Assembly (NCBI GenBank): GCA_017550285.1
Contig: JAFZPP010000047.1
Coordinates: forward strand, 1 to 64,000
Source of the DNA: Oscillospiraceae bacterium
GTDB taxonomy: Bacteria; Bacillota; Clostridia; Oscillospirales; Ruminococcaceae
Length of the DNA stretch: 64,000 nt
Direction: 5' to 3'
Made by a program: the position numbers and the translations under genes. Within the stretch, counting starts at the first letter, position 1, and each line of letters starts with the position of its first letter. Below the pieces are notes generated by a model, which did not search any database, was not told the DNA's origin, and worked only from the letters and a program-made list of their open reading frames with translations. Positions 35,308 through 38,631 of this stretch are shown one piece after another.

Positions 35308-35946
35308 TCAAAGGAAACCGTGCTGTGCCAGAAAATCCGCAGAGATGCCGTCATGCTGCTGCGGACGGAGCAGCTTTTCCGTATATTTCGCAAGGATGTC
35401 GCATTCCAGATTGACGGTATCGCCCGGCTTGCGGGAAAGAAGTGTTGTCTGCTGTGCCGTGTGCGGAATCACCGACACAGAAAAATCCTGCTGCGAGACC
35501 CGTGCGACGGTCAGGCTGATCCCGTCAATTGCAACAGACCCTTTTTCGACGAGATAGCGCAGAACAGACGCATCTGCGGCAACCGTGACCCATACGGCAT
35601 TCTCCTCACGCTGCAATTTCCGGACTGTACCCGTTCCGTCAATATGTCCGGAAACGATATGTCCGCCGAAGCGTCCGTTAGCAGACATCGCACGTTCCAG
35701 ATTCACTTTGCTGCCCTGACGGAGAGTGCCGAGATTTGTCCGCCGCATTGTTTCCGGCATGACATCGGCAGAAAAGCTGCTGCCGTCCGTCCGGCAGACC
35801 GTCAGGCAGGTTCCGTTGACGGCAATGCTGTCTCCGAGGTGTATATCCGACAGAATAAGCGCTGCGGAGATCGTCAGGACGCATGCAGATGTACCGTTCT
35901 GCACCTGCTTTACGGTGCCGGTTTCCTCTATGATTCCTGTGAACAA
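35308..35946 (-). CDS. ribE: Riboflavin synthase, alpha subunit
   Basis: This 212-residue enzyme dismutates two ribityllumazines to riboflavin. Two lumazine-binding repeats are seen, starting '[18 protein letters not shown]' and '[16 protein letters not shown]'. Motifs include '[13 protein letters not shown]' and '[11 protein letters not shown]'. Length is normal. It overlaps ribD by 19 bp. The gene is called ribE or ribC in different organisms. Confidence 0.96.
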
Positions 35947-37040
35947 GCTGCCGCCCCCTTTACCGTATAATCCAGCAGAATATCATCTCCGAACCGTGAA
36001 ATCTCCGGTGCCGAAAGCTGATATGCCTCCGCGACCGCAGCAACGCCGATGCCGCCGACCGCAGTTTTGGCATCTCTGCCGCCAAAAATCTTCGGTGCAA
36101 TGTAAATCTGAACCTGCTGTACGATTCCTGCACGCAGCGCCGCTTCATGCAGTTCTGCACCGCCCTCGATCAGAACACTGTCAAGATGCATTTTTCCGAG
36201 TTCCTGCATCAGCGCGTTCAGACTGACATGCCCGTTTTCAGAAGGCAGCATCAGAACCTGAACACCTGCATCCTCCAGCTGTTTTTGTTTTTCCGGATTC
36301 GTTTCGCAGGCAGCGGCGATGACGGGAATTTCCTGTGCCGTCTGCACAAGTTTCGAGGTCAGCGGAATCCGCAGATGCGTGTCACAGACGATCCGGACCG
36401 GATGACTCGGATTGTCCGTCCGGCAGTTCAGCATCGGGTCATCCGCCAGAACGGTGCCGATGCCGCACAGAATTGCTGCGGTTCGCTTTCGTGTTTCATG
36501 CACATGCCTGCGGGCTGCCTCTCCTGTAATCCACTGGGATTTGCCGGTTCGTGTTGCGGTTTTTCCGTCGGCGGTCATTGCCGTTTTCAGGATGCAGTAC
36601 GGCGCTCCGGTCGTGATATAATGAAAAAAGATGCGGTTGAGCTTGTCGCATTCAGCTTTGCAGATACCGGTCTCCACCGCGATGCCGGCATCACGGAGCT
36701 GCTGAAGCCCTTTTCCGGCAACCAGCGGATTCGGGTCATCCGAACCGACAACGACACGGGAGATACCCGCAGCAATCACAGCCTCCGTACACGGCGGATT
36801 CTTGCCGTAATGACAGCAAGGCTCCAGCGTGACATACATGACTGCACCGCGCGGATCCTCTGTGCAGTTTTTCAGCGCATTCCGTTCGGCATGCAGTCCG
36901 CCGTAGCGTTCATGCCAGCCTTCGCCGATGATTCTGCCGTCCCGCACGATCACACAGCCGACAAGCGGATTCGGATTCACAAATCCGATGCCGCGTTCTG
37001 CAAGGCTGACTGCGCGCAGCATCCATTCTGAATCTGTCAT
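35928..37040 (-). CDS. ribD: Bifunctional deaminase/reductase of riboflavin synthesis
   Basis: This 370-residue enzyme deaminates and then reduces the GTP-derived pyrimidine. The N-terminal deaminase has the zinc motifs 'LHAERNAL' and 'EPCCHYGKNPPCTE'. The C-terminal reductase has 'PYCILKTAMTADGKTA', 'ILCGIGTVLADDPML' and 'VLIEGGAELHEAAL'. Length is normal. It is the first gene of the operon, starting about 75 bp after the riboswitch aptamer and just beyond its terminator hairpin. Confidence 0.97.
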   Translation of the reverse strand: MTDSEWMLRAVSLAERGIGFVNPNPLVGCVIVRDGRIIGEGWHERYGGLHAERNALKNCTEDPRGAVMYVTLEPCCHYGKNPPCTEAVIAAGISRVVVGSDDPNPLVAGKGLQQLRDAGIAVETGICKAECDKLNRIFFHYITTGAPYCILKTAMTADGKTATRTGKSQWITGEAARRHVHETRKRTAAILCGIGTVLADDPMLNCRTDNPSHPVRIVCDTHLRIPLTSKLVQTAQEIPVIAAACETNPEKQKQLEDAGVQVLMLPSENGHVSLNALMQELGKMHLDSVLIEGGAELHEAALRAGIVQQVQIYIAPKIFGGRDAKTAVGGIGVAAVAEAYQLSAPEISRFGDDILLDYTVKGAAACSQES

Positions 37041-37090: not shown

Positions 37091-37114
37091 GGTTCGGGTG
37101 TTTGATCAGCGCCC

Positions 37115-37246
37115 GTTCTTCTCCCGTCCGGACTTTACCGTCGGTGCCGGAATCTCACCGGCTCGGCCTGCATCGGCAGGTTCACGGACTTCGGATGCAC
37201 AGGCATCCGTTACCGTCGGTTATGAATTACACATACCCCGAAGAAC
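37115..37246 (-). promoter_or_regulatory. FMN riboswitch (RFN element)
   Basis: The minus strand carries the conserved RFN blocks: a closing stem GTTCTTC (37240-37246) / GAAGAAC (37115-37121), 'TTCGGGG' after the 5' strand, 'AACCGACGGTAA', 'GAAGTCCGTGA', 'GAGATTCCGGCACCGACGG' and 'AGTCCGGACGGGAGAAGAA'. FMN binding would favour the downstream terminator and switch off rib genes. Confidence 0.95.
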
Positions 37247-37253
37247 AGTTATC

Positions 37254-38301: not shown

Positions 38302-38446
38302 TGGGAGAAGGATAAAATATTCAGCAGGCTAAAACTTTTTTCATCTGCTCGGCGTACAGGATGTTCTGAGCGTGTGTTATAATCTGCTGACCGGCAGAGC
38401 ATCTGTTCAAAAAACAGAATCTTCCTTTGCTTCCATTATTTTTGCA

Positions 38447-38475
38447 TTGAAAGAAAAACACGCATCTGCTATAAT
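38447..38475 (+). promoter_or_regulatory. Promoter for the Cys-rich micropeptide
   Basis: TTGAAA (38447-38452), 17 bp, TATAAT (38470-38475) with TGC extension. Confidence 0.75.
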
Positions 38476-38511
38476 AGTCTTATCCTGCATCAGAGGAAGG
38501 AGGCAAACGTG

Positions 38512-38580
38512 ATGTGCTGTAACAGCTGGTTTCAGTCGCTTTGTACGCTTCTGAGAAACATCTGCGGCGGCTGCTGCTGA
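38512..38580 (+). CDS. 22-residue cysteine-rich micropeptide
   Basis: A 22-codon ORF with ATG at 38512 and TGA at 38578-38580. AAGGAGG (38497-38503) lies 8 bp upstream. Six of 22 residues are Cys (positions 2, 3, 11, 18, 21, 22), including an N-terminal MCC and a C-terminal GGCC. The middle is amphipathic (WFQSL, TLLRN). No signal peptide is seen. The gene has its own promoter and a separate terminator, so this is a complete small transcription unit of about 145 bases. I know no named family. It might be a metal-binding peptide, a membrane-active peptide or a regulatory leader, but nothing downstream in the same transcript is coding. Confidence 0.65.
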   Translation: MCCNSWFQSLCTLLRNICGGCC

Positions 38581-38590
38581 TGACGAAATG

Positions 38591-38631
38591 AAACAGGGAT
38601 TCTTTCTGCGGAAGGAATCCCTGTTTTTCTG
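38591..38631 (+). terminator. Terminator of the micropeptide gene
   Basis: The stem AAACAGGGATTC (38591-38602) / GAATCCCTGTTT (38615-38626) is followed by T residues, starting 11 bases after the stop codon. Confidence 0.88.

Follow-up and report, generated by a model that had tools for sequence, protein, structure and literature searches.

The micro-gene and its transcription unit

The window, by which we mean the whole 64,000-nt stretch of DNA that was analyzed, holds on its + strand a complete small transcription unit, in which a promoter, a Shine-Dalgarno sequence, an ORF of 22 codons and a terminator are all present. The promoter (TTGAAA-17 nt-TATAAT, 38447–38475) agrees with the consensus at 11 of 12 positions and has an extended −10, with TGC preceding the hexamer; a conserved upstream element, TTCCATTATTTTTGCATTG (38431–38449, +), overlaps the first bases of the −35. 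Transcription is predicted to start at an A at 38482 (+), 7 nt past the −10, on the basis of the fixed N6-A spacing that follows TATAAT, a spacing that was not required in our set of 19 loci and was required by the pattern in the scan that gave 76 stretches. The Shine-Dalgarno AAGGAGG occupies 38497–38503 (+), and its GGAG is aligned among relatives, though the search pattern demanded GGAG. From ATG at 38512 to the stop codon at 38578–38580, the ORF (38512–38580, +), which homologues and pN/pS values support, encodes the peptide MCCNSWFQSLCTLLRNICGGCC, with Cys at positions 2, 3, 11, 18, 21 and 22. An in-frame GTG lies one codon 5′ of the ATG, at 38509; because the aligned start in relatives is ATG-TGY, with GTG at that place in L239 alone, 22 residues is a better reading than the GTG-extended ORF. 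An intrinsic terminator hairpin with a T run (38591–38626, +; 17-pair stem in the fold) starts about 10 nt past the stop. Its inverted repeat shows up as an opposite-strand self-match, and its absence from the list of a simple terminator scan probably reflects A-U pairs that absorb the T run. Promoter, AAGGAGG, ORF, cysteines and terminator are thus each where the preliminary description had placed them. None of 200 shuffled versions folds as well as the whole RNA of the unit (z = −4.35), a difference that probably comes mostly from the terminator.

The micro-gene is flanked by CorA, encoded on the opposite strand, and downstream by genes for a receiver-GGDEF-EAL protein, an Hpt protein and a hybrid kinase. 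Elsewhere in the region, an FMN riboswitch (37112–37249, −) precedes a RibD-like ORF (35928–37040, −; named by eye).

Distribution of the gene family

A DNA search of 60 relatives and the source genome with the 201-bp unit found eight clear homologues of the same genus (L003–L010, E up to 3.5e-16), all of which encode MCCN-type peptides. Weaker matches led to the divergent peptide types MCSTSFF and MCRQSIW. L041 was dropped as a likely chance match. A model built from promoter, 5′UTR and start (R1) found a single strong match apiece in 18 of the genus's 30 genomes (E up to 1.3e-6; next best 1.1e-3). Of the 13 genomes with a completeness of 90% or more and a contamination of 5% or less, 8 have it. 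No R1 match was found in the other 12 genomes (5 of the 13 good ones), where a copy too divergent for the model is possible; given this absence, the gene is considered common but not essential in the genus.

The first members outside the genus came from a peptide profile (HMM), which is too weak for counting; profile searches barely detect peptides of 16–25 residues. Genome contigs were also scanned with a pattern of the shared layout, giving 76 stretches. In 72 of these there is a Cys-rich micropeptide gene, one of them truncated by a contig end; L142, L150, L176 and L205 encode no such peptide and were dropped as chance matches. Named carriers are the Ruminococcus flavefaciens isolates SAb67, ND2009 and YRD2003 and Anaerotruncus sp. 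MC2020, and the others include many metagenome genomes of Ruminococcus, Oscillospiraceae and Clostridia. One bin labelled Alistipes (L191) is probably mislabelled, because its peptide is identical to that of the Ruminococcus records L194 and L198. Among 396 sampled genomes of the window's family, R1 matched in 18 at E up to 3e-4; 16 of these matches encode the peptide, and in L264 and L267 the promoter element stands before other genes. The carriers of this sample belong to nine genera, to which the peptide profile adds one (L051), giving at least 10 genera, a lower bound because the stricter-filter R1 run missed the known members L048 and L051.

The scan pattern fixes TTTGYATTG, TATAAT, GGAG and ATGTG, so that conservation there and in R1 is partly by construction; the DNA-similarity search, the peptide profile and the pattern-departing R1 matches L265, L266 and L268 are free of this bias. 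Two other patterns were set aside. GGGAAAT-GGAG-ATGTGY matched in 18 of 295 order-level genomes, with L089 as the only member (L074 and L089 judged by translation, the rest from the match listing), and a loose promoter pattern with 2 mismatches, which among the matches listed found mostly AT-rich, seemingly unrelated promoters, was excluded from the counts. The DNA pattern had no matches in viral contigs and the 22-residue window peptide none in phages or plasmids, and an origin from these elements was rejected on that ground. Taken together, the sequence comparisons indicate a family of Cys-rich amphipathic micropeptides that is conserved across rumen and gut relatives of Ruminococcus.

The family has no counterpart in the libraries that we searched. 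Pfam and NCBIfam gave no match for the window peptide or for five peptides of 21–25 residues, a weak test at such lengths. Rfam 15 gave no match at gathering score at the window locus or at six loci, the only sub-threshold matches being over the gene in L039 and L052. In a profile search of the PDB, the best 60 of 70 matches were all caspase-3 chains (one listed as apopain); these are weak and partial (best E 0.29) and were rejected as chance. Among the papers listed by our literature searches, none was seen to describe a family of this form in these bacteria, and no paper matched the family's motif strings. According to passages of its paper, the GMSC small-protein catalogue predicts ORFs down to 30 nt, and the recovery of 20-residue sequences drops drastically (PMC11364881); those passages contain no family like the Cys-rich micropeptides. 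Given the 30-nt limit, some members may sit in the catalogue as anonymous entries.

Purifying selection on the reading frame

Selection was assessed on a set of 73 distinct coding sequences, with one truncated copy excluded from the three-frame test. The test covered 142 pairs of equal length with a DNA identity of 65% or more and excluded the first two codons, which the pattern largely sets; pN/pS was 0.23 in frame, and the two shifted frames gave 1.48 and 1.74. Separate length groups gave 0.12–0.25, values biased low because only pairs of at least 60% peptide identity were kept, and the nine window-type sequences, with no identity filter, gave 0.21. The reading frame is under purifying selection. 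The preliminary description had suggested searching relatives for conserved cysteines and a bias to synonymous change, and had regarded a frame or Cys pattern unconserved in close relatives as evidence against a gene. That outcome did not occur: homologues were found with Cys at conserved positions and with substitutions at synonymous sites (in-frame pN/pS 0.23). The window micro-gene is therefore more than a chance ORF, its DNA being kept in genomes of the same genus and its frame being under purifying selection. As judged from sequence, the 22-residue peptide with six cysteines is encoded by a real micro-gene.

Peptide features and the arrangement of cysteines

The related copies of the gene provide 65 distinct complete peptides, from which L190 (cut by a contig end) and the second and third tandem copies were left out, save the second pattern matches in L157 and L195. 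The peptides are 16–25 residues long, about 25% Cys, and each contains 3–6 cysteines at differing spacings. Cys is found at position 2 in all 65, a conservation that the search pattern forced for most, but not for members that came from the DNA-similarity search or the profile; it is also found at positions 8–11 in 60 and among the last three residues in 63. An aromatic residue occupies one of positions 4–8 in 64 of the 65. Pro is absent from all of them, and His and Val each occur once in the whole set; 42 have a net side-chain charge of +1, and mean hydrophobicity is modest (0.27).

The preliminary description was right about the amphipathic middle of the peptide, and most of the family fits an amphipathic helix. 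When modeled as a helix, 54 of the 65 peptides have a hydrophobic moment above that of their shuffled versions (p < 0.05), and the best helical angle is 90–110 degrees in 63. Relative to the hydrophobic face, the direction of the cysteines has a mean cosine of 0.10 (shuffles 0.005, sd 0.037); cysteines are most frequent 60–120 degrees from the hydrophobic center, on one side (93 of 299), and the mid Cys has a mean cosine of −0.36. Such a geometry, computed on short sequences, would be expected of an interfacial helix but proves neither the helix nor membrane binding. The CC-C-C-CC arrangement of six cysteines, which the preliminary description had emphasized, holds in the window's subgroup; family-wide it gives way to 3–6 cysteines, with the second-position, mid and terminal Cys persisting.

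These features bear on whether the product might be a soluble metal- or thiol-handling micropeptide, that is, a minimal metallothionein-like carrier or redox buffer. The Cys content and the near-constant presence of second-position, mid and terminal cysteines would suit such a role. However, cysteine number and spacing vary so that no single scaffold for a metal site or disulfide is kept family-wide, the conserved hydrophobic pattern and aromatics would be unneeded, and the upstream element contains no obvious palindromic operator for a metal regulator (by eye). We regard a soluble carrier as rather improbable.

Upstream element, 5′ hairpin and terminators

Most members share one order of parts, in which the upstream element (ending GCATTG) is followed by TATAAT, a 5′ hairpin, GGAG, the peptide and often a terminator. 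The layout of most promoters is an element ending TTTGCATTG, exactly 20 nt, TATAAT, 6 nt and then A. Of 19 loci, 18 have an ATTG-N20-TATAAT distance of exactly 20 nt, and by eye so does the 19th, L037, which failed the Shine-Dalgarno pattern; members L048 and L051 lie outside this set. With up to 2 mismatches, TTCCATTATTTTTGCATTG occurs 16 times in 15 of the 30 genomes of the genus, and 13 of the 16 matches are at the peptide gene. A shorter form searched with 1 mismatch in six genomes gave 11 matches, five of which have TATAAT at the right distance, and four of these five are the peptide gene; in two of the six genomes, L162 and L165, the peptide gene's own element is too divergent to match. 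The element was not recognizable in members L051, L266 and L268. These counts make it a rarely used promoter element, perhaps the binding site of an activator.

The upstream element also precedes other genes in L224, L264 and L267, the last two being from other genera. In L267 the full TTCCATTATTTTTGCATTG with TATAAT at 20 nt stands, around position 1500 on the reverse strand, before the gene of a CAP-domain protein (Pfam match, first 100 residues scanned) with a signal-like start. The gene that the element precedes in L264 (about 1260–1600, − strand) encodes an 81-residue protein rich in Cys and Lys, which has a signal-like start, is without a Pfam match and is possibly a second Cys-rich product under the same control as the peptide. 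In L224 (Ruminococcus) the element lies, at the correct distance from a −10, ahead of a different ORF, one starting MKELLETLCDKY (by eye).

In the 5′UTRs of 63 members, folded alone, a hairpin (UCCC/GGGA) is often predicted from +2. A perfect 4-pair stem starting at +2 or +3 is present in 49 of 60 distinct 5′UTRs, where 5.0 would be expected with the rest of the UTR shuffled; loop lengths differ, and some stems extend further, to 8 pairs in L178. When whole transcripts are folded, 55 of 73 give the hairpin a probability above 0.5; in the window's subgroup only 2 of 12 do so (L147 and L179). The window's own version is weak (TCCT/AGGA, 38483–38497, +): it forms from +2 when the 5′UTR is folded alone, has a probability of 0.18 in the whole RNA and is missing from the MFE structure. 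Covariation in the hairpin, tested on fixed columns, did not reach significance, perhaps owing to a near-invariant core stem and an unaligned far arm. Of 71 distinct copies, 49 have a terminator no more than 87 nt past the stop, compared with 3.9 in shuffles. The other 22 have none within this distance, and among ten of these that were inspected, five run into another copy.

A hairpin in most members, a strong terminator and a short, stable-looking RNA are features that might be expected if the RNA itself were the functional product, a small regulatory RNA whose ORF is secondary or which has a dual function. Against this, substitutions fall at synonymous sites, Rfam has no match at the locus, the window's subgroup has mostly lost the hairpin yet keeps the peptide, and in two of three inspected arrays (L138 and L158) the second ORF, though provided with a ribosome site, lacks such a hairpin. 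An RNA function of this kind is quite unlikely.

The GGAG site is unpaired with a probability above 0.5 in only 20 of the 73 whole-transcript folds; being mostly paired, it may be a point at which structure limits translation. Together with small amphipathic peptides, patchy presence and tandem copies, a paired ribosome site would fit a type I toxin, in which a small membrane peptide is restrained by RNA structure or by an antisense RNA. The modest hydrophobicity of the peptides (mean 0.27) argues against a toxin, and a promoter scan of the window region listed no promoter-like site on the − strand there. We assign this explanation only a slight chance.

Neighboring genes and tandem copies

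Clustering of the flanking ORFs of 73 loci gave 23 upstream families (69 loci) and 47 downstream families (68 loci), the commonest downstream family being present in 8 of the 68; because flanking ORFs were called simply, some of these families may be spurious and the downstream count perhaps inflated. Many downstream genes face the other way. Such wide variation bears out the earlier view of a stand-alone transcription unit. CorA and the c-di-GMP phosphorelay, which had been offered as a hint to function, are not recurrent neighbors across loci, and their proximity in the window looks coincidental. In L067, the peptide gene appears by eye to adjoin a tmRNA gene.

Two or three copies of the gene are found in 13 of 76 loci (two copies in eleven, three in two), in a scan that required a ribosome-site-like stretch and missed L265. 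By eye, the arrays of L138 and L158 show a terminator-like hairpin after the second copy but not between the copies, and the promoter pattern matches separately for each copy in L157 and L195. The variability of the neighbors and the repetition of the ORF therefore argue against both a leader peptide and a function of the RNA alone. A cis-acting leader, mediating cysteine attenuation of a downstream gene, would account for a Cys-rich end followed by a terminator hairpin, but it is contradicted by the diversity of downstream families and by the opposite orientation of many downstream genes, and the next gene in the window has promoter-like sites of its own; we give it next to no credence.

The only widely recurrent neighbor is TspO, which lies upstream in 36 of the 73 loci (e.g. 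L165 and L182; one representative was confirmed by Pfam) and in none of the window's subgroup. Within the genus, TspO was present in all 11 carriers tested and in 6 of 11 non-carriers (Fisher p = 0.035), the sample comprising 11 of 18 carriers and 11 of 12 non-carriers. This association is a lead only, since it is confounded by kinship, genome size and completeness. The precursor of a modified peptide (RiPP) would be expected to have a maturation enzyme next door; apart from TspO, which is no maturase, no neighbor family is widely recurrent among neighbors that were mostly classed by clustering.

The neighborhood also bears on whether the product is an exported signal or antimicrobial, a leaderless peptide secreted by an exporter encoded elsewhere in the genome and acting on kin or competitors. 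At 16–25 residues the peptides leave no room for a signal peptide, and their leaderless amphipathic form, short variable sequences, tandem copies, stand-alone location and patchy occurrence (R1 matches in 18 of the genus's 30 genomes) are all compatible with export by such a route. On the other hand, no exporter, receptor or immunity gene recurs widely beside the peptide gene, an ABC-2 permease being found in only 6 of 73 loci, where it lies downstream and converges on the gene, and purifying selection is strong. Export of this kind is unlikely, in our estimation, while retaining some weight.

Proposed function and comparison with known systems

With a probability of roughly one in two, we favor a leaderless micropeptide of the membrane surface with functional thiols, made from a stand-alone gene. 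RNA polymerase would use the consensus-like promoter with its conserved upstream element to make an mRNA of about 150 nt, the 3′ end of which would be the terminator hairpin. The small 5′ hairpin of most relatives, less frequent in the window's subgroup, may protect the 5′ end of the mRNA and so could contribute to its stability. Translation is predicted to yield an amphipathic helix of 16–25 residues, which most likely lies flat on the membrane with its face of Leu, Ile, Phe and Trp inserted. Cysteines near the polar boundary would then act through thiol chemistry or through a bound soft metal. The peptide may either stay in the cell or be exported.

More tentatively, and with somewhat less than even confidence, we propose that Cys-lined amphipathic micropeptides represent a new class of effectors, membrane-active and thiol-bearing modulins or signals of fiber-degrading Ruminococcus and relatives, marked by a dedicated stand-alone gene, a rarely used promoter element, a 5′-terminal hairpin in most members and occasional tandem amplification. 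Our analysis shows that a coherent gene family can lie beneath the size limit of annotation and of family libraries; it was the shared promoter, leader and start that made these micropeptides findable in at least 10 genera. Because the family includes cultured isolates of the fiber degrader R. flavefaciens, its function is directly testable.

Among known systems, cysteine-responsive leader peptides resemble the micropeptide genes in having a short Cys-rich ORF followed by a terminator; the micropeptide genes differ from them in standing alone, in occurring as tandem copies and in having no recurrent downstream gene. Metallothioneins and other small Cys-rich metal carriers share the high fraction of cysteine, whereas the micropeptides are far shorter, are amphipathic and lack a conserved Cys spacing. 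The phenol-soluble modulins of staphylococci are leaderless amphipathic helices of about 20–25 residues, expressed from their own promoters and in some cases from tandem operons, with a known exporter and regulator and under quorum-sensing control. The micropeptides are like them in being short, leaderless and amphipathic as helices (54 of 65 beat their shuffles), a likeness of general traits. The staphylococcal modulins are not known to contain cysteine, and membership in that family was rejected for this reason. Unlike the modulins, the Ruminococcus-type peptides have 3–6 cysteines and, in most members, a 5′ hairpin, and they come from a different class of bacteria. Beside their genes, neither an exporter nor a regulator recurs widely. 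By analogy, the micropeptide would work most like a leaderless amphipathic modulin to which thiols have been added.
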